DNA of 64,000 nt, from assembly GCA_963422465.1 (NCBI GenBank), contig OY730169.1, positions 620,001-684,000 on the forward strand. Direction: 5' to 3'. A program made the translations under genes and the position numbers. The notes beneath the pieces were generated by a model, which saw only the letters and a program-made list of their open reading frames with translations, searched no databases and had not been told where the DNA came from. The number at the start of each line of letters is the position of its first letter. The stretch's first letter is position 1. Positions 35,355 to 56,062 of the stretch are shown one piece after another. Source of the stretch: Lichina pygmaea (Eukaryota > Ascomycota > Lichinomycetes > Lichinales > Lichinaceae).

Positions 35355-37186
35355 AGCCGGGAGAACTTGAACAGGAGCAACGTATGTTTCCGAGGCTCGT
35401 CTTAAGCTTTTTCCTGGCGATTTGCGCTGCAGGAGGCAAGCAGCAGGAGCGCAGTTTGTCCTTCAAGATTGGTTCTGTATCATAGGTGCTGTGCTCTTTC
35501 GATAGAAATCCGGCGACACAACATCACCGGGATGTACGAGGTAATCTCTTCCCTTGGGACGAGAAAGTGGTAGAAGGTGCTTCGATCTGACAAGGAACAT
35601 CTACGGGGTACTGTGACATCTCAGACAGCTTCTCGGAGCAAGCTTCAAGCTATATATTCGGCTGGCTGACTGACCATTCGAGGCGTTCCGTATACTCGGA
35701 AAACTTTGAATTCTAAGGGTCCAAGAAGTAGATACGACGACCGCGTCAGCTTTCTGGGGCGTCCCCGAGCTTGACAGTTGTAGATAGGTAAATGAAGTGC
35801 CTGCCTTGGTGGCCGACAATCTCTTTGCATCCTGCATCCTGCTCGAAAGAGTAGGCGGCATGTACTTGTCTAGAGGCTGGAACTTTCCACGTTCTGCCTC
35901 TGCCAACATGCTATGTAGGTCAGATACCCTCAGCGGACCGAATTGGAGATGTTGGTGTCTGTGGCGGGTTCATAGCGTGTCGGTATGATGATTCGACTGC
36001 TGGGAGCTCACGGTCTCGATTGTTGCAGGTTGCTTGTTGAGCTATCGCGGGGCTGATGAACAAGGCAGATCATGGAGTTCGGTCGTTTGATCCTTGTTGG
36101 ATTGAGGCCAAAGCTGATCTTAACTTATTGCTCGAGTCAAAGCCTCGATGACAGCATGCAGCCTAGGGAGGTCATTTCTGGGAATGTCTTCGTGCCGTAA
36201 GATGACGAAGCGCCTCAAACATTGACACTGTCAGCGTCGGCCGTGTATTTTGTTCGGCAAGTCTGTGGTGAGGGTTTTCTCTCAATGCTGTTGACTCGCT
36301 GTGGACAGTTGATAACAGTACAAAGCCAAGATGGCGAACATGTCAGTAGCCGAATGAGCTCTCGAGTTGAATCCGAACACGGACCAGTTCTGGCCCTACG
36401 GTAATGGCACAAGCCACGGAAACTATTTCACAAAAGGCTTGCTGATACAACGACGGAGAAAGTCCTGTCCAAATACCGTCGGATGTTCCTACGACCTTGA
36501 TATCAGTCCGGGGATTCCACGTGTGGCCTTCAAGCCAAGGGTTTTTGTTGACCGGGGACTCTACGGAGAGTTGCCCGCGGATTTGCAGGGGTGTCGAGAT
36601 CAGCCTCCCCCCGAGCGACGGCTAAACTGTTGTCTGCAGGCACGTGACAGTTTGCAGAGTTTTCCTCTTCTTCTTTGTTGTCGCTCCTAGATTTTAGTTA
36701 GGCCAGAGAGAGACGAATCTACACAGTTGACTGGTTGTCAGCTAAAGCACCTCTCCACATAGTCGACCGACCGTCGGCTTTCAGTTTTGGTGTACGGCCC
36801 CATTAGCACCCAAAACTGAGGTGTGTACACCTACATCTCAGGCTTCTCGACAGGGGTGACCCTTCGTACAGTACGTTACGTACATACAGTACTCATGTAC
36901 GTACGTACCGTACATACATACCATACCCATTCTGGCTTTGGTTAAGCCTGAAGTTGCTTCGTCTCGCCCAAAGATTCCTGCTCGTGCGACTGTGGTCCCC
37001 TACTGTCGCTTAGGAATCTCGGTGCTGGAGCGGGCAGTAAGTCTGGGACGAGCCAATGTCGGGCAGGGCAGAGTCGATGCCAGCGGGCTGTTACACTTCA
37101 TCATGCATCATCGCTCAGCCTCGAGGCTCGGCGCTGGAGAACAATGCGTGCAAGGCTGCAGCCTTGTTCTCAGCCGCACACAATCC
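35355..37186. other. gene-free spacer with GTAC array
   Basis: 1.8 kb with no convincing gene. A dense GTAC-word array covers 36861-36925. The last 250 bp are probably the original upstream region of the STAND-N/ankyrin gene now found at 52416. Confidence 0.5.
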
Positions 37187-37238
37187 TTTTATATAGCCCC
37201 TCATTGACCCCAAATCGAGTCTCGGGCATCTCCACTTC
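37187..37238 (+). promoter_or_regulatory. TATA box and leader left behind by the LINE insertion
   Basis: TTTTATATAG at 37187-37196 is a good TATA element, followed by about 50 nt of leader up to an ATG at 37247 that lies inside the left target duplication. Because the duplication also contains the start codon of the gene at 52416, this is inferred to be that gene's former core promoter. It now faces a LINE fragment. Confidence 0.6.
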
Positions 37239-37252
37239 ATCTCGCGATGGCC
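37239..37252. repeat. target site duplication, left copy (LINE at 37253)
   Basis: ATCTCGCGATGGCC, identical to 52408-52421. It contains the ATGGCC start of the downstream host gene. Confidence 0.88.
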
Positions 37253-38679
37253 AAACCTTGCAAGAGTAGAGTGTGAGAAGCTACACCTGCCCTTCCACTT
37301 CCAAGACAAATATGAAGTGGATGAGTACTTGGAGTATCTTGACAACTTTCTCCAAGAAATAGCAAGCAAATCCACACAGCTCCAGAAGCAATCTGGCCAC
37401 TCAGTTCCCTGGTGGAATCAAGAGATCCAAAACAAGGTTAAAGAGGAAAGAAGAGTAAGAAGAAAAGTGCAAAAAAGGCAAGCAAGTCAAGAGGAACTTG
37501 AGCAAGCAACTAAGCTCAAGAAAAAGGCAGTCAGAGATGGAAAACAGAACACTTTCAGACACCAAATCCATGAGCTGGCCAGCTCTTCAAAGTTCTGGAA
37601 GCTTGCAAAGTGGGGAAAGTCCAAAGCCAACAAGACTCCTGATCTTCCTCTGGTTCCTGACCTGGAAACACAAGAAGGAATAGCCAAAACCTTTGAGGAA
37701 AAGACTAAAGCCTTCTCACAACAGTTCTTTCCAAAAGCTCTAGTTCCAGAACCAGGCTCAGAAAGCTCCCAGACTATCTCTGAGATACAGCTCTCCCAGG
37801 AGGTAACATGTGAAGAAGTGGAGCAAATTCTGGCCAAGAAGAAACCTTTCACAGCAGGAGGGAGAGATAAGCTGCCAAATGGATTTCTGAGAGCTCTGGG
37901 GCCTAGGTTCTGCCAAGCTCTAGCTATTCTGACTTCAACATGCTGGAAACTGGAGTACTTCCCTGAAAGATTTAAGAGTGCAAAAACAGTCTGCTTGAGG
38001 AAACCTGGCAAGGGAACCTACAATCAAGCTAAAGCCTGGCGCCCTATAGCTCTGCTAAACACAACAGGCAAGCTGATGGAAGCTATTGCTGCAGCCAGAC
38101 TAAGCAAGATAGCAGAAGAAGCTGGACTATTGCCAGATATCCAGATGGGCTTTAGGAAAGGAAGATCCACAGAAGCAGCACTTTTCCTTCTAACCTCCCA
38201 AGTGGAAAAAGTCTGGAAGGAAGGCATGGTTGCATCCCTACTCTCACTGGATATCTCAGGAGCCTATGACAGAGTTCTCCCCAAGATACTACAGCAAATT
38301 CTGAAAAGAAAAGGAATACCTGCCTGGCTAGCTTCCTGGATCTACTCCTTCTGTGATAAGCGCTCTACCACTCTTGTCTTTGATGATTCTGAGTCTTATT
38401 CTATTCCTATTCATTGTGGAGTTCCTCAAGGTTCTCCATTATCCCCTATTCTTTTTCTATTCTACATTTCTGAATTGCATGAGACTGTGCATACTCCCTC
38501 TTCTGGTGTATCTGCCCTGGGGTTTGCAGATGATACAAATCTGCTTGCTTTTGGTCACTCCTTGAAAAGTAACCTTCTGAAGTTAAAGAACACACACCAC
38601 AAATGTCTATCCTGGGCTGCAAGACATGGAATAGTCTTCTCACCTGAGAAATATGAAATACTTCATTTTTCCAGAAGAA
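37253..38679 (+). pseudogene. LINE ORF2, piece 1: linker and reverse transcriptase
   Basis: The open frame runs without a break through the reverse transcriptase palm: Asp residues of SLDISGAYD and of FADD are present. It is cut off at HFSRR by the first LTR element. The upstream end begins mid-protein (CEKLHLPFHFQDKYEVDEY), so no start codon of its own is expected. Confidence 0.85.
38675..38679. repeat. 5-bp target duplication of LTR element 1, left
   Basis: AAGAA, matched at 44815-44819 on the right side of the element. Confidence 0.85.
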
Positions 38680-39032
38680 TGTTAAGGCCTAGGCCGGAAC
38701 AGCCCAGGTAAGCGAGGGAGGAGTGTTAGTCATGCGGAACAACATCCGACCGATCCGGTGGACGAGCAGGAGCTAAGCGAGGAGCTCGTCCACGCAAAAG
38801 GATGATACCCCTCGAGGAGACCCCCCCCTTGGGGCATCTGTATAAAGACCCCCCAAAGGGCCCGGAGGGATTAGCTCTCCAGGCTGAACACCAATGCACA
38901 CATCGTACTGAGACAATAGCACAGGAGAGTTACCCCACCTGTCTATTCCTCTACCGAGTCCCTGTCTAGAATCCACCCCGCGAAGCAACAGACCGAGCCG
39001 CCTTCTGTGTGAACCCGGCCCGGCCTTTAACA
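38680..39032 (+). repeat. 5' LTR of element 1
   Basis: 353 bp, starts TGTTAAGGCC and ends CCTTTAACA. It has one 35-bp repeat unit (38757-38791) and a TATA-like GTATAAAG at about 38840. Confidence 0.9.
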
Positions 39033-42000
39033 GTTTCAGCCTCTAACATATAGGACACTGACTTGATACGATGGTGGATCCACGAAGCCCTACCCCTTCT
39101 CAGGCAGCCCAAGCCCAGGCTGCTCAGGCGGCTCAGGCCCAGGCTGTCCAGGCGGCACCTATTGTTAACCTACCCCTGAAGCCCTTGAAGGTAGGTGCCC
39201 CGAAGAGGTACGATGGATCCAGGGGAGGACTGGAGTTGTTCTTCTCACAACTGGAGCTCTACTATGGGTTCAACACAGCCCAGTTCCCGACAGACCAGGA
39301 GAAGGTGCTGTTTGCAGCCTCCTACCTGGAAGGACCAGCCTTCGCTTGGTTCAACATCTACTTAAGGGATTACCTAGACAATCAGGCAGACCCCAAGGAG
39401 CAAGAAGACAATACCCGACGGGTCATGGGAAGCTTGAAAACTTTTAAGACAGCCATGAGGAAGATGTTTGGGATCCTTGACAAGGAAAAGGATGCGGAAC
39501 GAAAGCTCCAAGCACTGCAGCAAACTGGATCAGCATCAGAATTCACAGCGAAGTTCCAACAACTAGCAGTGAGGACCCAGTGGGGGGACAGTGCACTAAC
39601 AGCACTATTCTACCAAGGCCTCAAGGAACGAGTCAAGGATAACATCGCGCGAGGAGACTGACCAACCGAGCTCTACGAAATGATCGAGACTGCAGCTCGC
39701 ATCGACGACTGACAGTTTGAGAGAGAGCTTGAGAAGTGAGGCAAGCAGACGAAACCATGGGTGAAGAAAAAGCCAACACCTGCCAAAGATAACTACGGCT
39801 TGGTACCTATGGAAATTGATGCGGTGGAACCACAAAAGAAGGAGACACAGAAGTGTTACAATTGTCAGAAAGTGGGCCACCTTGCGGTGAACTGCAGGAG
39901 TAAGAAGAAGAACAAGAAGGGCAAAGGGAAGCAGTTGAACGCCACAAGCACCTGGAAAGGCAGGGAGATGGAGGAGCCCCAGAGGGCCTCCCAAGGCACA
40001 CTACCCCACAATCACCCTGAGGCAGCACTCCTCAGAGAGGAGGACAACCTCCGACAACACACCGAAAAACTCAAGAACATGCTCCAAGAAACCTTGGACC
40101 ACCTTGACGAGGTCTGAAGGAAGGTTGACAGAATCCACTGGGAGGACGACCTGATCTCCGAGTTTGACACAACTGGCTATATGGAGGAACAGGTTGACGA
40201 CAAGGAAGCCCAGCCACCACCAGTCCCCGACAAACCTGTCCTTCAACAATAGGACACAACCCTATCAGAAATAGGGGAGACGCAAGTGTCATGATGGGTT
40301 GATGATACCCTCAGCATCACACAGGTCAGAGACATTGCTGATGATTGCAACCAAGACCTGTGGGAACAATGCCTCACCACATGATGCAAACGACACATGG
40401 TAGAGCGTCAGGCCCAGGGCCTAGGCGGCTCAAAAAACTAGCAGCGCTCTTCAAAACCGGGGTCGGAAGAGCAGGCAAGACAACACCCCGGGAGGAAGGA
40501 GTCAAGCTGAGCCTTGACGCAACAGCCTGCAGCCCGCACTTTCACATCAAGATCAGAGTCAATGGGTGGTTGGCTAAGGCCATGATCAACTCTGGTGCGA
40601 CTGGCAACTTCATGTCAGAAAGCTTTGCCAGAAGAAACAAGGTTCCAGTCCAAGGCAAGAAAGACCTCTACCAGTTGACGGTAGTGGACAGAACACCACT
40701 CTCCAAAGACAAGGGACAAGTGACGAAGGAGACCAAGAGTCTGAGACTGAGTGTCCATGGCATGATGATCAGAACAGAGGAATTCGACTTGGTCCGAATA
40801 CCACACAAAGTTATATTGGGACTTCTGTGGTTGGAAAAACAAAACCCAAGGATTGACTGGACAAGAAGGCAACTAGTCTTTCCAGATAAGACACTGGTCA
40901 CGGCAGAACCAGGGGTGACAATCAAAGAAATCTCACTGACACGCTGGAAGAAATACCACTGGCACAGGCAGGCCTGTGTGGCCTGGATGAAACTCTGAAC
41001 ACAACAACTTTGCACCACGCAAGACGCCGTGGGCAAGACTCAGGCACCGCAGTTGCCAAGTGAGTATAAAGAATACCAGGAGATGTTCGAAGAAACAGTG
41101 ATCGTGATGCTACCAGAACATCAGGAGTGGGACCACGAGATTCCGCTGGAAGACAGAAAAAAACCCACACACAGCCCTATCTACGCTCTGTCAGCAAAAG
41201 AGCTTGAGGCCCTGAGAGACTACCTGGACAAGAACCTAGCGAAAGGGTTCATAAGACCTTCAACATCACCAGCTGGATACCCGATATTGTTTGTGCCAAA
41301 GAAAGATAGCAAACTTTGACTGTGTGTTGATTACCGGCGGCTAAATGTGATTACGGTGAAGAACTGCTACCCACTGCCACTGATATCAGAAATCCAAGAC
41401 TGGATCCAAGGAGCCAAATAGTTTACCAAGTTTAACATTTGAGGCGCTTTCAACCTGGTTAGGATGAAAGATGGCGAAGAATGGAAGACAGCCTTTCGTA
41501 CAAGGTACGGGCACTACAAGTATACCGTGATGCTATTTGGCCTTACGAATGCACTGGCAACATTCCAATCACTTATTAACGCTGTCCTCCGACAATACCT
41601 GGATATATTTGTCACCGCTTATATCGACGATGTCTTGGTATACACCAATGGAACCTTGGAGGAGTATAAACAGTATGTCAAAACAATCCTACATGTACTC
41701 CGGAAAGCAGGCATGAGGTTACGCCTTGATAAAAGTGTTTTCCACACGAAAGAAGTGGAATATTTGGGGTTGATCCTGACAACAGAAGGAATCTGAATAG
41801 ACAACACAAAGACAGCAGCAGTACGAGACTGGCCAACACCCAAAAACCTCAAAGAAGTACAATCCTTCCTAGGATTTGCAAACTTCTACTGACGATTCAT
41901 CAAGGACTACTCAAGAACAGCAGCAGCCTTGACAGAGTTAACCAGAAAGAACAAATCTTTCAGGTGGGGGGAGAGCCAACAAGCAGCCTTCCAGGAGTTG

Positions 42001-43792
42001 AAGAATAAATTCATCTCCACACCCATTTTGGCATCATTTGATCCTGAGAAGAGGATCATTCTGGAACCTGATGCCTCAGACCAAGCATTGGGATCCTGCT
42101 TGTGTCAACCAGATGCTGACAACCGCTTACACCCTGTCGTGTACCGATCGAGAAAGTTCTCTGGCCCAGAACTGAGGTACGATGTTCACAACAAAGAGTT
42201 GCTAGCAATCGTCGACGTATTCCAAGAATAGAGGCCTTACTTGGAGGGGGCAAAATACATGGTAGACGTGTACTCAGACCACAAGAACCTAGCTTACTTC
42301 ACAACAACAAAGAAGCTAAACTGACAGCAAGTTTGATGGGCAGAGTTGTTAGCATCATACAACTTCCAAATTCTCTACCGGAAGAGCACTGAAAATACTC
42401 GAGCAGACGCACTCAGCAGGCGACCAGACCTGATGGATGAGAAAACAACAGAGGAACACCCAATCCTAGTGACAAAAGGACAAACCCTGGTCTATGCCCA
42501 ACCCCAACTGGCAACAACAGAAACAAAGAGTCCACTCCTTACCCTTGGCCACAAGACAGCAAACAAAAAGGAAATTGTGCCAGAAAGAGCACAAGAGGAG
42601 GTGATCTGGAGGCACCATGACAGGCCTTTGCACAGACACCCTGGGCAAGATAAAACCTTGGAGAAAATCCAAAGGAACTACCGCTTCAACAGAATGAAGC
42701 GCAAGGTGACAGAGTTCATCCGCAACTGCGAACAGTGCGCGAAGAACAAGCCATCAAGACATAAGCCCTATAGGCAGGCACAGCAAATGGACCTACCCGA
42801 GGCACCATGGGAAACTATCACGATGGATTTTGTGGTCAAGTTGCCAAAGTCAACAGACCCAGCAACAAAGGTGGTATACGATAGTATTTTGGTGGTTGTT
42901 GACAAGCTCACCAAATACACCCACCTGGTCCTGTGGAAAGAGTCAGGAACCACGAACAAACTTGCAAGTGTCCTACTCAGAGAGCTGGTAAGCCACTGAG
43001 GGCTACCAAAGACAATCATCTTGGATCAAGACAAACTCTTCACCTTGAAATTCTGGAACATGTGGACAAGGCAACTTGGCATTGATACAAGGATGTCAAC
43101 AGCCTACCACCCACAAACTGACAGACAAACTGAGCGGACAAACCAGACAATGGAGCAGTATCTATGACACTACGTCAACCACCAGCAGGATAACTGGGTG
43201 GAACTGCTACCAATAGCCCAGTTTGTGTACAATGACCAGCAATACAGCGTGACAGGGACAACACTGTTCTTTGCGAACTACGGAAGAAACCCCTGATGGC
43301 AGGCAACAGCAGGAGGCAATGTTGTTGATGTTAGCAAACTCGCTGCTATGCACGAGATGATGAAAACAACAATCAACTGTGCCCAGAACGCCACCGCCCG
43401 CTGACTACACGACAAAAGGTTGAAGGGACCAACCCTGGAAAGGGGGGATAAGGTCTACCTATCAACAAAAAACCTGCGCTCAAAGTGACCAAGCAAAAAG
43501 CTGGATCACGTACAAATCAGACTATTCGAAATTGAGAAGCGCACTGGGAAGGTCAACTATCGACTGAGACTACCACAAAAAGCAAGGATACACCAAGTAT
43601 TCCATGTCTCGCTGCTCAAACCAGCACCCAGCGACGCAGAGATCAAGACAGAATGGAACTTTGAGGATGACAAAGAAGAGTACAATGTTGAAAGAATCCT
43701 GGATAGTCGAAGAAACAGACAGAAAACTGAGTACCTGGTGAAGTGGTTAGGATTTGACGAAGAGGAAAATTCGTGGGAACCAACCGAGAACT

Positions 43793-44242
43793 TCAGCTCT
43801 GCGATGAACCAGAAGCTGGTGGATTACCACCAAGCAAACCCGCAGCGACCAGGTCTGACAGAGACAACAGCTTGAGAGAAGCCAAAGCCTCTGAAGAGAA
43901 GATGTCCTCAAAGGACAGTGGAGCAGCAGCCTGACTGGCCTCCTGTTTGCGGATAACGCGGAGAGCCTCCTGTTCCTGAGCATCAAGGGATTCCTGATCC
44001 TTGATGGCGGACAGCTCACGACAGATAGCATCAGCCTCCTTCTGTGAGAGATAACCCAGCTGCCGGCGGAGGCAGATCTGCCGGGGAAGCAACTTTGACA
44101 ATTGGTCATCAGTCTCCCGCAACTGAGCCTCAAGCTGCTCACACTCAAGTTCCATCTTCTTCCATTCTGATTCTGAGAGATGAAGGTCGCAGCGATGACT
44201 CTTCTCAACACACCGACAACAAAAAGATGATGCGGAGCTCAC
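43793..44242 (-). other. antisense ORF at the 3' end of LTR element 1
   Basis: A minus-strand open frame of about 149 codons lies opposite the chromodomain end and the stretch before the 3' LTR. It encodes a Cys-containing start and a charged heptad-like helix (SESEWKKMELECEQLEAQL), and is clearly the same protein as in element 2 (50632-51081). It is part of the fossil element. Confidence 0.6.
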
Positions 44243-44426
44243 GACACACTTGGCGTGGTCGCGATGACAAGCACCGCATGCGATTTTTGATTCCTTGCCT
44301 ATTTTGCCAATACAACAAGAAAGAAAACTGCGATGACAAGTTCAAGTTGTCTGGCTTTGGTTCATGACAAAAGAGGAGCAGGAACAAAAAGGATCTGGGG
44401 ACAGAACCCTTGGAGGGAGGGGATAG

Positions 44427-44814
44427 TGTTAAGGCCTAGGCTGGAACAGCCCAGGTAAGCGAGGGAGGAGTGTTAGTCATGCGGAACAACATCCGACCGA
44501 TCCGGTGGACAAGCAGGAGCTAAGCGAGGAGCTCGTCCGGTGGACAAGCAGGAGCTAAGCGAGGAGCTCGTCCACGCAAAAGGATGATACCCCTCGAGGA
44601 GACCCCCCCCTTGGGGCATCTGTATAAAGACCCCCCAAAGGGCCCGGAGGGATTAGCTCTCCAGGCTGAACACCAATGCACACATCGTACTGAGACAATA
44701 GCACAGGAGAGTTACCCCACCTGTCTATTCCTCTACCGAGTCCCTGTCTAGAATCCGCCCCGCGAAGCAACAGACCGAGCCGCCTTCTGTGTGAACCCGG
44801 CCCGGCCTTTAACA
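44427..44814 (+). repeat. 3' LTR of element 1
   Basis: 388 bp, with two 35-bp repeat units (44504-44573); otherwise almost identical to the 5' LTR. Confidence 0.9.
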
Positions 44815-45244
44815 AAGAAGATCAGACAATCTTCAGCTCAAGCTCAGACTGGGGAATGTGATTCTCAAACCAAAAGAAGAAGTGCGAGTACTTGGAGTGT
44901 ACCTAGATGCAAAGCTCCACTGGCACAAACACCAGAGGATTATTCTTCAAAAAGCACAGAAAGCACTCTCTTCTCTTTCTAGAACTTCCTATTCTACTTG
45001 GGGCTTTCCAGTTCACACATCACGTCTGGTGTACACTGCTATACTGAGATCTCTACTGAGCTATGCAGTGGGGATCTGGTTTAACCCTCTAAGAAAATCC
45101 TCCAATATCTCTTCTCTTGTTTCATTTCAAAACAGATGCCTAAGACTTATTGGGGGTGCTTTCAAAGCCACTCCTTCTTTTCTATTAGAGAGTGAGCTTT
45201 TTCTTCTACCTCTAGACCTCTACTTTAAATTTCGCACTGCCTGT
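44815..45244 (+). pseudogene. LINE ORF2, piece 2
   Basis: Middle piece of the LINE reading frame between the two LTR elements: RVLGVYLDAKLHWHKH, SYSTWGFPVHTSRLVYTAIL, YAVGIWFNPL and FQNRCLRLIGGAFKATP. These are typical of the thumb and connection region after a Tad/I-type reverse transcriptase. No internal stop is seen. Confidence 0.85.
45240..45244. repeat. 5-bp target duplication of LTR element 2, left
   Basis: CCTGT, matched at 51599-51603. Confidence 0.85.
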
Positions 45245-45682
45245 TGTTAAGGCCTAGGCCGGAACAGCCCAGGTAAGCGAGGGAGAGGTGTTAGTCATGC
45301 GGAACAACATCCGACCGATCCGGTGGACGAGCAAGAGCTAAGCGAGGAGCTCGTCCGGTGGACGAGCAGGAGCTAAGCGAGGAGCTTGTCCGGTGGACGA
45401 GCAGGAGCTAAGCGAGGAGCTCGTCCGGTGGACGAGCAGGAGCTAAGCGAGGAGCTCGTCCACGCAAAAGGATGATACCCCTTGAGGAGACCCCCCCCTT
45501 GGGGCATCTGTATAAAGACCCCCAAAGAGCCCGGAGAGATTAGCTCTCCAGGCTGAACGCACATTACGAGTGACAATAGCAAGAGAGTTACCCCACTTGC
45601 TATTCATCTATTGAGTCCCTGCCCTCCTCGGTCAAAGACAGGACCACCCACATTCTGTGTGAACGTGGACTGGCCTTTAACA
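45245..45682 (+). repeat. 5' LTR of element 2
   Basis: 438 bp, TG...CA ends; four tandem 35-bp units at 45322-45461, then a TATA-like GTATAAAG at about 45509. Confidence 0.9.
45322..45461 (+). repeat. 35-bp LTR minisatellite, four copies
   Basis: The unit begins GGTGGACGAGCAGGAGC and ends GAGGAGCTCGTCC. It contains the inverted pair GGACGAGC and GCTCGTCC, so each unit can fold into a short hairpin. Other LTRs here have one (38757-38791, 51343-51377) or two copies (44504-44573). Confidence 0.9.
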
Positions 45683-48600
45683 GTTTCAGCCTCTAACACA
45701 TAGGACACCAGCTCAATACGATGGCAGATCCACGCAGCCCTACCCCTTCGCAGGCAGGCCAAGCTTGGGCTGTGCCTCAGGCGCAAGCCCAGGAACCACC
45801 TGTCCCTACCACCCTCACCTTACCTCCAAAGCTGTTGAAGGTAGGTACGCCGAAGAGGTACGATGGATCACGAGGGGGATTAGAATTATTCTTCTCCCAG
45901 CTTGAGCTTTACTACAGATTCAACACCGCACAATTCCCTACGGAACAGGAGAAGGTGCTGTTCACAGCTTCCTACCTGGACAGACCGACATTTGCCTGGT
46001 TCAATGTCTACCTACAAGACTTCCTCAACAACAAGGAAGACCCCTCTAGCATGGAGACCACGACACGGCAGATCATTGGGAGATTCTCTACCTTCAAGAC
46101 CCAGATGAAGAAGACCTTCAGGGTCATTGATGAAGAACGAGATGCGGAACAAAAGCTCCAAGCACTACGGCAGACAGGGTCAGCATCAGACTTTGCGGTG
46201 AAGTTCCAACAGTTGTCAGTGAGGACACAATGGGGAGACAGTGCCTTGACGGCACTATTCTACCAAGCTCTCAAAGAACAAGTCAAGGATGACATCGCAC
46301 GAGGAGACCGACCCACCGACCTCAAGGATATGATTGACACAGCGGTACGCATCGACGACCGACAGTTTGAACAAGAACTCAAGAAGCAAGGCAAGCATGC
46401 AAGGCCATAGGGCAAAAAGACAGCGCCAGCACAAGACAAGTACAGCTTGACACCCATGGAGATTGATACAACAACACCACAGGCAACAAAGAAGAAAGAA
46501 ACACGGAAGTGTTACAATTGCCAGAAGGTAGGACACCTCGCAGCCAACTGCCAAAGCAAGAAGAAGAAAGAAGGCAAGGGTAAGCAGTTGAATGCCACCA
46601 GTGCCTGGAAAGGCAAGGGCATTCAGGAGCCACCGAGGGCTCCCAGAGGCACACTACCCATGAACTGGTCAGAAGCAACACTCCTCAGACAGGAGGACAA
46701 TCTCAGACAGCACATCAAAAGACTGGAGAACAATCTGCAGAGGTCACTGGAGGACCTGCACGCAACCCAAGACCAGATCAATAAGGTTCATTGGGAGGAT
46801 GACCTGATCTCCGAATTTGACACAACGGACTACGAGATTGACATAACCGGCATGCCACCAGTTCCCGAGACACCACTACTCCGACGACAGGATGCGACCT
46901 TGTCGGAGGACAGCGAAGCAAGAGTGACGTGATGGGTGGACGACACCATCAGCATCTCACAGCCCCGAGACATCGCAGCGCAAGTGGACCTTCACCAGGC
47001 TACGACACCAGCCTGCGGACGTCCTTATTGGAAAGGATGTGAGGACCACCACTGCAAGGAACATCTCCTAGAGAAAAGGAGAAGGCACTACTTCCCTGGC
47101 CCAGAATACCACAAGAAAGCCTGGAGCATCAAGCACCAGCTAAGCCAGCAAGGGAAAGAACGCGATGATTGCGGAGAAGACGCATGGGAGCTATGCTTCA
47201 CTGAAAAATGTGAAAGACACACGGCAGAACGCCAGGCTCAGGGCCTTGGTTGTTCAAAAAACTAGCAGTGCTCTTCAAATCCGGAGTTGGAAGAGCAGGC
47301 AAGACAACACTCTGGAGAGAAGGGGTTGAGCAGAGCCTTGACACGACAGCCTGCAGTCCGCATTTTCACATCAGGATGAGAGTCAACGGGCATCTGACAA
47401 ACACCATGATCGACTCTGGAGCTACTGGCAACTTCATGTCAGAAAGTTTCGCCAGGAAGCACAAGATCCCGACTCAGGAAAAGAGGAATCCATACCAACT
47501 AACGGTAGTAGACGGGACACCACTCTCCAACGACCAAGGACAAGTGACGAAGGAGACCAAGAACCTACAACTGTGTGTCGACGGTACGACAATCAGATCA
47601 GAAGAATTCGACTTGGTCCAGATACCACACAAAGTTATATTGGGTTTTCCGTGGTTGGAAAGTCAAAACCTAAGGATCGACTGGAAAAGAAAGCACCTAG
47701 TCTTTCCGAAGAGGAGTCTGGCAACTCGAGCAGAGCCAGAGAAAGTGAGAATCAAAGAGATCTTATATGCAGGGTGGAAGAAGCACCACCGGCGAGGGCG
47801 AGCCTATGTGGCTTGGATGAAGCCCCGAAACCATCAACTTTGCACCACGCATGACGCCGTGGGCGAGACTCAGGCACCGCAGCTGCCAAGTGAGTATAAA
47901 GACTACCAGGAGATGTTTGGTGAGGAAGCGGTCACGATGCTACCAGAACACCAAGAGTGGGATCACGAAATTCTGCTGGAAGACAGAAAGAAACCCACAC
48001 ATGGCCCTATTTACGCTCTATCAGCAAAGGAGCTTGAGGCCTTAAGAGATTACCTGGACAAGAACCTAGCGAAAGGGTTCATAAGACCTTCAACATCACC
48101 GGCTGGATACCCAATATTGTTTGTGCCAAAGAAGGACAGCAAATTACAACTGTGTGTCGACTACCGGCAGCTTAATGCGATCATGATTAAGAATCGCTAC
48201 CCGCTACCATTAATATCGGAAATCCAGGACTGAATCCAAGGAGCCAAGTAGTTTACCAAGTTCGACATCCGAGGCGCTTTCAACCTGGTTAGGATGAAAG
48301 ATGGCGAAGAATGGAAGACAGCCTTTCGTACAAGGTACGGGCATTACGAGTATACCGTTATGCCATTCGGCCTTACGAATGCACCGGCAATGTTCCAATC
48401 ACTCATTAACACTATCCTCCGACAATACCTGGATATATTTGTTACCACTTATATCGATGATGTCTTGGTTTACACCAATGGAACCCTGGAGGAGCACAGA
48501 CAGCATGTCAAGAAGATCCTACATGCGCTCCAAGAAGCAGGAATAAGGTTACGCTTTGATAAGAGTGTCTTCCACGTGAAAGAAGTGGAATATTTGAGAT

Positions 48601-50631
48601 TGATCCTGACGACAGAAGGAATCCGTATGGACGATACAAAAACCACGGCAGTACGAGACTGGCCAACACCCAAAAACCTCAAAGAAGTCCAATCCTTCCT
48701 GGGATTTGCGAACTTCTACCGACAATTCATCAAGGAGTACTCAAGGACAGCAGCACCCTTGACTGAACTAACAAAGAAGGAAGAAACCTTCACATGGGGG
48801 AACAGCCAAGAAAGAGCGTTCCAGGAGCTGAAAGAGAAGTTCACCTCCGCACCCATACTGGCATTATTTGATCCCGGACAGCGGATCATCATGGAGACAG
48901 ATGCCTCAGACCAAGCACTTGGATCTTGCTTGTGTCAACCAGACGCCGAAAACCACCTACACCCTGTCGCATACTGATCAAGAAAGTTCTCTGGCCCAGA
49001 ACTCAGGTATGATGTTCACAACAAGGAGTTGTTAGCGATTGTCGACGCATTCCAGGAGTGGAGACCTTACCTGGAAGAAGCAAAGTACACAGTGGACGTG
49101 TACTCAGACCACAAGAATTTGGCTTACTTCACGACGACGAAGAAGCTAAACAGACGACAAGTCCGATGGGCGGAGCTTTTAGCTTCATACGACTTCCAGA
49201 TCTTCTATCGAAAAGGATCAGAAAACACACGAGCGGACACGCTTAGCAGGCGGCCTGATATGACAACAGACAACACGACAGAAGAGCGCCCAATCCTTGT
49301 GACAAAAGAACAAACTCTGGTCTATGCTCAACCTCAGTTAGCGAAAACTGAAGAAATGGGTGCACTCCTGACCCTAGGCCACAACGTTGCGGCCACAAAC
49401 AAGGAAGAAGTGCCAGAGAGCGCACAAGAGGACGTGATTCGACAACATCACGATGGACCTCTACACAGACATCCTGGGCGAGACAAGACCCTGGAAAAGA
49501 TCTGGAGACATTACCACTTCAACGGAATGAAGCGGAAAGTGACGGAATTTATTCGCAACTGCGAAGAGTGTGCGAAAAACAAACTGTCACGCCACAAACC
49601 CTATGGAGAGAGTCAACAAATAGACCTCCCAGAAGTGGCTTGGGATACCATCACAATGGATTTTGTAGTGAAGCTGCTGAGGTCAGAGGACCCAGTAACA
49701 AAGGTGAAATATGACAGTATCTTGGTGGTTGTTGACAAACTCACCAAATACGCTCACCTGATCCTGTGGCGAGAGACAGGAACAGCAAGTGAACTCGCCA
49801 ATGTCCTGCTCAAAGAATTGGTTAGCCAGCGAGGGCTACCCACGAAGATTATCTCGGATCAAGACAAACTCTTCACCTTGAAATTCTGGAACACGTGGAC
49901 AAGACAGCTAGGGATAGACATGAGGATGTCTACTGCCTACCATCCACAAACAGACAGACAAACTGAGAGAACAAACCAGACGATGGAACAGTACCTACGC
50001 CACTACGTCAACCACCGACAGGACGATTGGGTAGAACTGCTACCAATGGCTCAGTTTGCGTACAACGATCAGCAACACAGCGTGACAGGCACGACACTGT
50101 TCTTTGCGAACTACGGCAGAAACCCCCGCTGGGAAGCGATAGCGGCTGGAAGTGGCACTTCAACGAACATCGAAAAACTCACTGCTATGCATGAGGAAAT
50201 GAAGACTGCAATTGAATCTGCACAAAAGACAACAAGCCACCACCTAAACAGCAAAAGGTTGAAGGGACCAACCCTGGAGAGGGGGGATAAGGTCTATTTG
50301 TCAACAAAAAACCTGCGCTCGAAGCGACCGAGCAAAAAGCTGGATCATGTATGAATCGGACTGTTTGAGATTGAGAAGCGCACTGGAGAAGTCAACTACC
50401 GACTGAGACTGCCAAAAAAGGCACAGATACACCGAGTATTCCATGTCTCGCTGCTTGAGCCAGCACCCAGCGACGCAGCAATCGAAACAGAATGGCACTT
50501 CGAGGACGACGAAGAAGAGTACGATGTCGAAAGGATTCTAGACAGTCGGAGAAACAGACGGAAAACTGAGTACCTGGTGAAGTGGTTAGGATTTGACGAA
50601 GAGGAGAATTCGTGGGAACCAACCAAGAACT

Positions 50632-51081
50632 TCAGCTCTGCGATGAACCAGAAACTGGTGGATTACCACCAAGCAAATCCGCAGCGACCAGGTCCGACGG
50701 AGACAACAGCTCGAGAGAAGCCAAAGCCTCCGAAGAGAAGACGTCCTCAAAGGACGGTGGAGCAGCAGCTTGACAGGCCTCCCGTTCACGGATAACGCGG
50801 AGGGCCTCTTGTTCCTGAGCATCGAGGGACTCTTGATCCTTGATAGCTGACAGCTCACGACGGATGGCATCGGCCTCCTTCTGTGAGAGACGACCCAGCT
50901 GCCGGCGGAGGCAGATCTGCCAGGGAAGCAGTTTTGACAGTTGGTCATCAGTCTCCCGCAGCTGAGCCTCGAGCTGCTCACGCTCAAGCTCCATCTTCTT
51001 CCATTCTGATTCCGAGAGATGAAGGTCGCAGCGATGACCCTTCTCGATGCACTGACAACAAAAAGACGATGCAGAACTCAC
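50632..51081 (-). other. antisense Zn2Cys6-like/coiled-coil ORF in LTR element 2
   Basis: A minus-strand open frame opposite the chromodomain end and the region before the 3' LTR. The frame is also open upstream to about 51165, and there shows ACGACRRDHAKC, then CCQCIEKGHRC, so that six Cys follow C-x2-C-x6-C-x8-C-x2-C-x6-C, the spacing of fungal Zn2Cys6 clusters. A charged heptad-like helix follows (SESEWKKMELEREQLEAQLR, SQKEADAIRRELSAIKDQES). Element 1 has the same ORF. Function unknown; it is part of the fossil element. Confidence 0.6.
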
Positions 51082-51265
51082 GACACACTTGGCGTGGTCG
51101 CGACGACAAGCACCGCATGCGATTTTTGATTCCTTGCCTATTTTGCCAACACGACAAGAGAGAAAACCACGACGACGAGTTCAAGTTGTCTGGCTTTGGT
51201 TCATGGCAAAAGAGGAGCAGGAACAAAAAGGATCTGGGGACAGAACCCTTGGAGGGAGGGGATAG

Positions 51266-51598
51266 TGTTAAGGCCTAGGCCGGAACGGCCCAGGTAAGCG
51301 AGGGAGAGGTGTTAGTCATGCGGAACAACATCCGACCGATCCGGTGGACGAGCAAGAGCTAAGCGAGGAGCTCGTCCACGCAAAAGGATGATACCCCTCG
51401 AGGAGACCCCCCCCTTGGGGCATCTGTATAAAGACCCCCAAAGAGCCCGGAGGGATTAGCTCTCCAGGCTGAACGCACATTACGAGCGACAATAGCAAGA
51501 GAGTTACCCCACTTGCTATTCATCTATTGAGTCCCTGCCCTCCTCGGTCGAAGACAGGACCACCCACATTCTGTGTGAACGTGGACTGGCCTTTAACA
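51266..51598 (+). repeat. 3' LTR of element 2
   Basis: 333 bp with a single 35-bp unit (51343-51377); otherwise a near-exact match to the 5' LTR. Confidence 0.9.
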
Positions 51599-52233
51599 CC
51601 TGTTTTCTTTCTTCTATTCAAAACTCCCCTCTCAAATACTTTCTTGACAGTATCTTTTCCACTATTTCCAGCTATGCCTCTCTCTTGAAGAAACCTTTAA
51701 AGGAATCCCCAACTATCTCTCCTAAGTGGAAATTCACTTGGTTAAGTCAAATAACTACTAACCAGGCTAGTTCAAAGAAAGAACTACAAAAGCTCTTTAC
51801 TAAAGAGTGGGAAGACCAATGGGAAGAGAAGAAAAGAAGAAGCTATCCAGGCTGGCAGACTTTCTGTCAAAAGCCACACAAAAACAATCTGAAGCTCTAC
51901 AAAGAGTTACAGAAAGCTGAGGCAAGTCTACTACTGCAAATCAGGACTGGAAGAATTGGTCTGGCAAGTTTTCTTTTCAGAGCTGGAGTTCCTGACTTCC
52001 CTACCCCACTATGTGTGTGTAGCCAAGCAGAAGAAACTGCAAAACATATCACCTCTTCATGCTCTCTTTATTCAAGACAAAAACAACAAGTCTCTTTTAA
52101 TCCCCAAGACTTCACCACTATTATTTCAAACCCAGAGCTACTACAGAAGTTCTTGTACTGGTTTATGTCTTTGAAAAGACTAAACCAGTTTAATCTAGCT
52201 TTCAAACTCCACTATTCCCAATCCAATACCTAG
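51599..52233 (+). pseudogene. LINE ORF2, piece 3: C-terminal end
   Basis: The last LINE coding piece, open from the right target duplication to the stop at 52231-52233. It includes TGRIGLASFLFRAGVPDFPT and a Cys/His pattern (CVCSQAEETAKHITSSC) like the C-terminal finger of Tad/I elements. The following 174 bp are its 3' UTR and A-rich tail. Confidence 0.85.
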
Positions 52234-52407
52234 ATTCTCTTCTCTTACCAGAAACTTCAAGATTCCTTTTGTTACATTCCCTAGTCACACCCTGCCTTCA
52301 GTTTTTATCTCTTCAAAGGTTTTCTGAAGGAGTTCACTATTAGCTAGAAGATCTGCATGGCTGTAAAGCTACTACCAGTGTAAGAATCAAATAAAATAAT
52401 AAATAAA

Positions 52408-52421
52408 ATCTCGCGATGGCC
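52408..52421. repeat. target site duplication, right copy (LINE)
   Basis: ATCTCGCGATGGCC; the ATG at 52416-52418 is the start codon of the host gene. Confidence 0.88.
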
Positions 52422-55400
52422 GAGATCCTTGCGGTGACTGCAGCAGCTGTGCAGTTTATCGATGTTGGTGGCCGAGCCTTAGTCAAGTTTTCTCGACTTG
52501 TCTCAAACCTACGGCGCGCTCCCAAAGCAGTGAGGACTGCAAAGAGTGACTTGAGTCGTCTAGTCGGTCTCGTCAAGACGATCAAGCAGGACTTCGAAGC
52601 AGCCAAGACTGGACCTGCTACATCGCTCAGTGGGGCCGTCTCTCACGCGCGACTCGATACTGCAGCAAGTTTTCTTAAAGATTGTCTGAATGAGACGAAC
52701 GAGCTCTTACGGATTCTTGATGGGCTTGACTGCGAGCGGTCTGATAACGTTGCAAAAAAAGCGTGGCGCGCCGTCGTCAGCGTCAAGGAGGAAAACAAGA
52801 TTTCTGAAGGGTTGGCGCATCTTGAACAGATCAAGTCAAGCTTGTCTCTCTGGTATCAGCATGAAACGCTGGCCTTGGTGAATAATCAGCTGTAAGAGCT
52901 ACGCAAAACTCTTTGATCGCACCCGCGCTGAGTTGACGCATTCCACCCTTCCGATACAGACAACGTTGGCTGTTGTCGAGGAAACTCATAGCAAGATCTC
53001 GCCCTTCGGAGGGCAGCTGGCTTCGCTAGAGCATAAGGTTAGGAGCAGCACGCAGACTATCCAGAGAGGTCTGCAGCAAAACGAGACTGGCATCGTAGCC
53101 TTGGGCCAGGGCATGACCCAGATAGATGGGACGCTTGTTGACATGTCAAGCCAATTTCAAGCGACTGTTGAAGCTCTCACTCGTAAGGTTATTATACTGT
53201 CATGCTGACTGATACGCCATGTTTGCTGAATGGTTCTCTCAGGTTCAAGTCCATGATGCTACTGTTAGTCGCGTTGAAAGCTGCCTCGAGTCTTTATGTC
53301 GCGGTGGATATGATCGAAGTGCCCAAATTCGGTTTGAGGAGCAAGATGTTGAAAACCTTGTACGCTCACTCAATCCAAGTCTAATCTCAAGTTATACTAA
53401 TCCAGCGATTCATATTCATAACAGGCTGATCAGGTCGTTTTACGTCTCGCAGCCAAACCAGGTTTGGCTCAAACCCTCGAATCCGAGGGCCGTGAATACC
53501 CATCCCGGGTAAATGCGCGCCAACAGGGTCCTAGGCGCTATGAGAAAGCGCGATGTACCTGCGCTGCTACCACCTCAACCTCTCGCATTTCGTGGCCGCC
53601 AATTTAGTTCTATCAAGAGACAGGCAAACGACATCTTCCCACATGCCCGCTCCATCGGCTATCGAGTACCACTTGGACGATTGGGGTCCGCGCAATACTT
53701 CCTAGACTGCTTGCGAAAAGCATAAGTCTGGCTTTCACAGCTACCTCAGGAGCTGGTGGTTTCTCTATCTCACATGGCCTTCAGGCAGTCAGAATCGTCG
53801 ACAGGAGGCGGTCTCCGGCATTCCAGGCGCTTGCTTTGCTCAGGGAAAGATTGAATGAAATCCACCCTCATATCTCGCCACGCGTTCGCGCAGAGTTGAT
53901 CTCGAAAACGTTGGACAAGACTTGCAAGCACCTAGACATGGCCTTTCGCTCTGGGAATGCTTCTGGACTTGACCAAGACATACGGGGCCGGACGCTGTTG
54001 CATGTAAGTCAAGTCCGGCTTGTCACCTGGGATATGCGCGTTGCTGAAGTCACGGCATATAGGGATTGGTTGCTGCTGTGATATATCGAGATGGTCTCAC
54101 TAGGGATGACATCTTTCCAACAATAGAACTAATCGTTAACTTTGGGGGAAACGTCAATGCTGTGTCCGAGAGGTATGTATGGTCACCAATAATTGGTAAT
54201 AAAACTTCGAGGCATAAGGCTCACTTCATGTGGAGCGACGGAACCGTTCTAGCTATGGCAATAAAATCCATGGACCTTACGATTAGCTACCTTCCTAACG
54301 TTCTCTTGGATTTCGAAGCCGTAGCCCAATATCGAGGCGACTTCCTTCGTAACTACAGCCGAAACTCATTCGTTTCTCAATTTCTTGCTAGCAGAGCTGA
54401 ATCTGCTGCAGGTCAGTTCTTCATTACCTATTCTTTAACACCTACTTGACTGGTATATATAGCATCATCTGTACTCACGCCCTAAGTGTCTTAGAATGTG
54501 GCTGTTCTGAACTCAGCATATCGATCATCAACCGGTCTGCCCCAGAACTCGAACGCTTACTTTTGGGAGGTCATGACGCAAACGGCAGCCCAGATGAGCC
54601 TGTGTCCCCTCTCACATTGGCGCTAGGATGGCGTTCTGGCATGGATGCACTTCTTGAAGCAGGCGCAGATCCTTGGATATCAACCTGCGTCGCTATCGAA
54701 CTTGGCCTAGTTTCCGAGGTTGGGGTGCTACTGGAGTTCAACTGCCCGCTGTTCCAACCTGCCATTGATACATTAGGAGCTTCCCAATCTCTTCTGGCTT
54801 TCGCTCTATATACTGGTCATCATCAAGAAATGGACACGTATGACGACATCATCAGCCTTATAATCAAAGCAATTGCAAAGTCCCGGCGCCAACTTATGGA
54901 TCTGGCCACCCAAAAACTTTCCAGCAGCCAGCTGGGACTTCTTTCTCCACAGATAAGGAGAGGGGAGACACTTCTTGACAAAGATGCGTCGTGGGTTGTG
55001 GATGCTCTGGAGGCGGCCAGCGTTGTCATTCCTCCCTTCCTATGGCCGGGCGACCATGCATCAATCTATCATCACCGACTACTTCGGATGGATAAAATTA
55101 CTGAGCTCTTCAATATAGGATTTTGCTCCATTGATGTGGAGGACGCATGTGGTCTTACTCCGGCCATCATCCAGTGCTACTCCCTTCAGCTCGACGAGGT
55201 AGTATGGTTTCTAAGTCATGGAGCTAGATCTACCGGATTTCTTGCATCTCAGCCGTTGAACTTGGTCGACGCTGTCGCTTTGCAAAGGGGGTTCAATGCT
55301 TATTGCCGGCACATCTTGGGCTCTTTCGTGCCTCTTACTTCGTTGCAAAATGTCTCGCTGGGCAAAATCATTGCAGCCTGCAACCCTACGTTGAATGATA

Positions 55401-56062
55401 CTTGTGACTGCCCCTGCTCTTCTCACGGCTGCTCGACCATGACATTTCTATTCAAGAGGTTCTCCGGCTCCTGGCGCGATAAGACAGGCTTGCTATCAGA
55501 TTGGCTGCAAGCAACAGATGGGACCCCTACCAAATTGGAATCAAACTATGCAGAAATCTGCAGACGGGAAGCTTTCGAGAGATTGGGCATGGCTCACGTC
55601 TGCTGCCAATACGTTTATTCTAATAGGCCGAGTTATGGCGACTACTATCATGTGAGAAAGTGGTTGAACGCGGATGAGGAGCAAGAGCTCCGCGACGAAG
55701 ATGAACCCTTGAGGGCTGTCCTGGAGATATACATGCAGCTCTACAAGGACCTGCGAAAGGAGCACTCGGGACCTTTCCTCGTCTTTTGGGATGCATGGTG
55801 GGACGCCCTGACCGCTTTCCCTCCTGAAAGAATCGAAGTCAAGATTCCAGGATACCACTCCCGATGGGAGCCTGTCGAAGTGAAAGCGCCTCAGCGGGCA
55901 TTCGACAGCGGCGGAAGTTCCATTTCCTGGGCGAGCTACGGCCTAGACGGACAGATCAGGGACGCAGTTCGATCTCGTCTGGGACATCGCGATGGAGAGG
56001 ACGACGCGGATATCTTTGCCGATGCGATGGCATGCTTGTTTCAGGGTGGCGATCTGCTCTGA
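52416..56062 (+). pseudogene. STAND N-domain / ankyrin-like gene hit by the LINE
   Basis: A host gene with a fungal STAND N-terminal domain (MAEILAVTAAAVQFIDVGGR, then helices to about residue 155) followed by a linker with Cys/His pattern, an SLAFTATSGAGGFSISHGLQ stretch and a C-terminal half with ankyrin-like units (ELERLLLGGHDANG, MDALLEAGADPWIS). Apparent introns: 52879-52970 (donor GTGAAT), 53188-53243, 53356-53425, 54004-54061 and 54410-54493, each restoring frame. One in-frame TAG at 53605-53607, just before YQETGKRHLPTCP, is not removed by any intron I can find. The last 1.57 kb (to 56062) is a long clean frame ending in FWDAWWDAL and a charged tail. Its promoter lies 15 kb upstream, beyond the transposons. 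I judge it a recent pseudogene; partial expression of the 3' half remains possible. Role in recognition or incompatibility is only a family guess. Confidence 0.65.

Follow-up and report, generated by a model that had tools for sequence, protein, structure and literature searches.

The question raised by this locus is whether a retrotransposon inserted at the very start codon of a gene, with the coding start kept and the core promoter left on the far side of the insert. The window, that is, the whole stretch of 64,000 nucleotides analysed, spans positions 620,001 to 684,000 of contig OY730169.1 in the Lichina pygmaea assembly GCA_963422465.1, and positions are counted from its first base. A previous sequence-only reading had reported a LINE flanked by a direct repeat, and both copies of this repeat, ATCTCGCGATGGCC, proved to be exact and to form a unique pair genome-wide. 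The left copy lies at 37239–37252 on the plus strand, contains an ATG at 37247 and adjoins the first LINE base (37253), and the right copy lies at 52408–52421, also on the plus strand, contains an ATG at 52416 and directly follows the end of the A-rich tail of the LINE. The distance between them is 15,155 bp, and 13 or 14 bp were duplicated, the LINE tail itself ending in A. The repeat is far above chance expectation. Its sequence occurs exactly in only two places on either strand of the genome (32,469,017 bases in eight contigs), both of them insert ends, and allowing up to two mismatches added three further places in the window, none at the insert. It is extremely improbable that the two 14-mers match by chance or arose through faulty assembly, as each sits precisely at a LINE end and the retrotransposons nested between them carry perfect duplications of their own; no point was found in favour of either.

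The insert was inspected by self-comparison, reading frames and Pfam, and was found to consist of three LINE pieces, two Ty3/Gypsy elements and the 5 bp duplicated by each of the latter, all in plus orientation. LINE piece 1 (37253–38679) is 5′-truncated inside ORF2, holds a reverse transcriptase domain (RVT_1, 3.8e-32) and ends in the left AAGAA. It is followed by the first Ty3/Gypsy element (38680–44814; 6,135 bp), whose LTRs measure 353 and 388 bp (38680–39032 and 44427–44814) and which has a chromodomain at 43489–43872 (Pfam Chromo), and by the second AAGAA (44815–44819). LINE piece 2 (44820–45244) leads to the second element (45245–51598; 6,354 bp), which has LTRs of 438 and 333 bp (45245–45682 and 51266–51598), Pfam matches to gag, RVT_1, RT_RNaseH, Integrase_H2C2 and rve, and the perfect duplication CCTGT. 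After its second copy (51599–51603), LINE piece 3 (51604–52407) supplies the 3′ end and the A-rich tail. The two Gypsy elements are 82 % alike over 4.5 kb, and both show TG...CA LTR ends and a perfect 5 bp duplication; together with the reverse transcriptase–RNase H–integrase order (scanned in element 2) and the chromodomain (scanned in element 1), these are the features of Ty3/Gypsy chromoviruses. The LINE pieces sum to 1,427+425+804=2,656 bp. A single 15 kb LINE, to which the sequence-only reading had attributed the displacement of the promoter, is thus ruled out: a LINE insertion was confirmed, but it accounts for only ~2.66 kb, the other ~12.5 kb being later Gypsy sequence.

The order of these events was read from related copies elsewhere in the genome. 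From 1,037 first-look candidates, a search scored the best 40, among them the window's own copy, and 29 sibling loci were fetched. Pieces 1, 2 and 3 are joined without Gypsy sequence in 28 of these; in the remaining one (L018), where the truncation falls in piece 2, only the 2–3 join is present. As sibling LINEs are continuous across both Gypsy sites, the LINE is the older element and the two Gypsy elements arrived later. This resembles other nested retrotransposon insertions, with two LTR elements in an older LINE and a 5 bp duplication for each, and there is nothing unusual in it.

The siblings also indicate what kind of LINE this is. In the contig 7 copy, L063 and L020 together carry an uninterrupted frame of 1,083 codons with endonuclease and reverse transcriptase matches, and the endonuclease of L063 was matched as Exo_endo_phos_2 (1.3e-16). 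The window copy starts downstream of the endonuclease domain and, compared with the contig 7 sibling, is truncated inside ORF2, the sibling having LINE bases on either side of the truncation point. A-rich 3′ tails were seen in the window copy and all 29 siblings. The family thus shares with APE-type fungal LINEs an endonuclease and a reverse transcriptase in one long (sibling) frame, an A-rich tail, 5′ truncation and target duplications of variable length. The family may be Tad-like; the part scanned gave no Pfam match to RNase H, in which it differs.

As the sequence-only reading had proposed, our data well support a LINE insertion that proceeded through target-primed reverse transcription and left a 13–14 bp duplication spanning the ATG. 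LINE body, A-rich tail and duplication follow each other in the expected order, and the standard account (PMC2881922) describes target-primed reverse transcription in which a second nick gives rise to the duplication and 5′ truncation is frequent. Among the siblings, target duplications of 6–15 bp were found, at 12 bp in L033, 14 bp in L034, 14–15 bp in the contig 7 copy and 6 bp in L031 (10 bp if four bases common to the LINE are counted); against this interpretation, only 4 of the 13 sibling 5′ ends inspected carry one. No duplication was found at the 5′ ends of L017, L018 and the contig 4 copy, L040 offers just 6 bp of 5′ flank, and for a third extended copy, on contig 3, no 5′ end could be located.

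The other five of the sibling 5′ ends (L023, L024, L025, L029 and L039) adjoin one common foreign sequence. These LINEs are differently truncated and meet the same foreign end (...CTGTGG) in the same orientation, and the foreign sequence was traced for up to ~1 kb in four of the five. This arrangement may reflect nested insertion or template jumping. One of these copies, L024, has 7 bp (TGTGGAT) in common with its own 3′ flank, which we take for chance. Furthermore, in two pairs of LINEs, L017 with L044 and L024 with L036, both members end at almost identical positions of a related target sequence that itself looks like a transposable element, which hints at a target-site preference.

The LINE insertion is recent, since the window copy carries a single private substitution (52021) in 2,320 columns when compared with the 29 siblings, whose own counts range from 0 to 9. 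Only columns in which five or more siblings are represented entered this count, which leaves the first 347 bp of piece 1 uncovered, and the sibling set is biased toward similar copies because its members are the best matches to the query. By contrast, the LTR pairs differ at 3 of 353 sites (0.85 %) and 6 of 333 sites (1.8 %) in a four-LTR alignment, all by transitions, which exceeds our expectation for elements that arrived after this LINE. Dating by LTRs was distrusted: in a 13-row alignment that showed eight of the LTR differences, seven had both alleles among the other LTRs, and the differences were perhaps introduced at reverse transcription. The Gypsy LTRs also differ in the copy number of a 35 bp tandem unit. 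This suggests that an LTR clock would misdate the locus. Indices of RIP were mixed, the composite index being negative in seven of nine stretches, 0.25 in LINE piece 3 and 0.73 in a repeat of the left flank described below. The base make-up of LINE piece 3 is not the result of local decay, as the piece is 98.9–99.3 % like its siblings.

What the LINE separated from the gene depends on the flank to its left. The TATA box near the left repeat copy, reported earlier from the letters alone, was recovered as TATATAG at 37190–37196 on the plus strand, 57 bp upstream of the left ATG. The two strands of the window together contain 16 TATAWAR matches, three of which overlap at this site, compared with 4.65 expected from shuffles, and by our own arithmetic a match in a given 66 bp stretch of one strand is a 0.2–0.8 % event. 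The sequence 36790–37252 has a sole other genome match, of 55 bp at 84 %, and there was no empty site in this genome, in that neither 52408–53800 nor 36790–37252 has a second full copy. Further left is a dispersed repeat of 238 bp (36546–36783, plus strand) with TG...CA ends and a 5 bp duplication (GTTTT). A search of the flank gave at least 40 further matches to it, and 11 copies were fetched; ends were placed by script in eight, six of which have an exact 5 bp duplication, and the repeat resembles either a solo LTR or a small LTR-type element. Beyond it lie RPB1 and a gene for an M16 peptidase that looks like a mitochondrial processing peptidase.

This arrangement supports the view that the insertion parted the gene from an upstream flank bearing a TATA motif, and it is plausible that this flank was the gene's former core promoter, which we consider probable. 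The ATG is linked by the duplication to precisely this flank, and 37197–37246, between the TATA motif and the start codon, is free of any ATG. It is unlikely that 37187–37252 never served this gene, with the TATA motif being fortuitous or directed leftward and the gene having another promoter or no expression. TATATAG is nearly symmetrical, and at the same site the minus strand reads TATATAAAAGG, which is at least equally good; the solo-LTR-like repeat also ends only ~400 bp upstream. However, a leftward promoter would face 35,910–37,187, where no ATG-initiated minus-strand frame reaches 60 codons.

The right copy of the repeat provides the ATG of a SesA-like gene (52416–56062, plus strand). 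This gene had been described as STAND-N/ankyrin-like, and the match behind the STAND label is marginal: exon 1 matches SesA in Pfam at 27.3 bits against a cut-off of 26.3, whereas the spliced model scores 21.3 bits and falls under it. Neither ankyrin nor NACHT nor NB-ARC was matched in the spliced model at E values up to 1, a range in which the HMMER filters drop most matches above ~0.1. What the gene has in common with fungal SesA/STAND (NLR-like) genes is its marginal N-terminal match, and it differs from them in these missing matches; it is a possible immune-receptor-like gene. A second SesA match in the genome was under the cut-off. The only paralog found is distant (L062, G000:C1:1018000-1023600; 6.9e-5 in a genome search with a composite protein), and no single frame could be followed in it outside the aligned frame of 166 residues. 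A search of a large protein database with the composite protein gave no relatives at E≤0.001 among 7,995 candidates scored. These negatives are weakened by the fact that the composites were built on a frameshift reading that was later dropped.

That the start was intact, as the sequence-only reading had it, is correct for the coding start, while the rest of the frame depends on a putative intron. Six GT-AG introns (52878–52959, 53183–53249, 53360–53424, 53509–53607, 54004–54062 and 54412–54494) would give a frame of 1,063 residues, or one of 1,057 residues if the first intron is 52892–52991; otherwise an in-frame TAG stands at 53605–53607. The search for intron sets, scored with splice motifs, returned another set of six that likewise reaches 56062. 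Codon scores are weak and count against the model, as they favour frame 0 over 53196–53376, where the intron model is in frame 2. A clear pseudogene with several frameshifts was considered and dropped, given the distant paralog and frame-consistent introns, although the one in-frame stop remains. The coding frame is either whole or interrupted by this one stop.

The stop also bears on whether there was anything left to silence. A gene that was dead before the LINE arrived, so that the insertion silenced nothing, is a rather unlikely alternative. The TAG lies within sequence alignable to an open frame in the distant paralog (37 of 118 residues identical), and intron 53509–53607 (GTAAAT...TTTAG) would remove this segment although it matches coding sequence; moreover, given the youth of the LINE, such a lesion is more likely to predate it. 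On the other hand, the same intron would take out the stop and restore the frame of 1,063 residues, and the last exon is open for ~520 codons. The potential break at 53605 is nevertheless a point against our preferred explanation, in which the start codon was cut off from its probable promoter.

Under that explanation, the native transcript is likely to have been lost, because the former TATA flank now reads into LINE sequence. The gene itself is most likely silent, or weakly read from transposable element sequence, and its silence is less certain than the loss of the native transcript. The nearest TATAWAR upstream of the gene on its own strand is a TATAAAG (51427–51433, plus strand) inside the 3′ LTR of the second Gypsy element (51266–51598), which has the same orientation as the gene and places the motif 989 bp from the ATG. 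A promoter borne by a transposable element, above all this LTR, could thus drive an active gene, but we regard this as unlikely, as six ATGs in 51456–52415 would hinder translation unless spliced out. There is a slight chance that this is a very young, perhaps segregating allele of an immune-receptor-like gene: its start codon would have lost the core promoter but no coding base, and the Gypsy LTR would have become the new promoter. If true, LINE-free and LINE-bearing strains would differ only in what drives the gene.

Taken together, the sequence shows a LINE inserted at the start codon and Gypsy elements nested in it later, and we consider it probable that the core promoter was thereby cut off. 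In the proposed course of events, a 5′-truncated member of an APE-type LINE family that is abundant and recently active entered the start codon of a SesA-like gene without a close paralog in this genome, by target-primed reverse transcription. A second nick ~14 bp from the first caused eight leader bases and ATGGCC to be duplicated, with the left duplicate kept by the upstream flank and the right one by the gene. Two Ty3/Gypsy elements then entered the LINE and widened the gap to its present length. The TATA-bearing flank at 37190 now reads into the LINE, and the gene has most likely lost its native transcript. A LINE-free allele would accordingly read TATATAG...ATCTCGCGATGGCCGAGATCC uninterrupted, with the sequence ending at 37252 preceding ATGGCCGAGATCC. 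The insertion and nesting steps are read from the sequence, and we infer the identity of the promoter and the loss of the transcript.

The insertion is genuine but of a familiar kind. The present case was not found in the literature searched, which took in few subscription papers. According to PMC4905642, about half of the genes with a transposable element within 1 kb upstream or downstream are repressed in Pleurotus, and Gypsy elements predominated at 21 genes that were inactive only in the allele bearing the element; in Botrytis and yeast, nearby elements left gene expression unchanged. Our locus resembles the repressed Pleurotus ostreatus genes described there in having an element within 1 kb upstream and Gypsy sequence present, and differs in that the insertion lies at the start codon itself, which it duplicated. 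Its attraction is an accident of position, in that the duplication spans the ATG, leaving the coding start intact and the probable core promoter cut off. The locus therefore offers a clean, young natural experiment, in which strains with and without the LINE would show the fate of a fungal gene of which only the promoter has been displaced.
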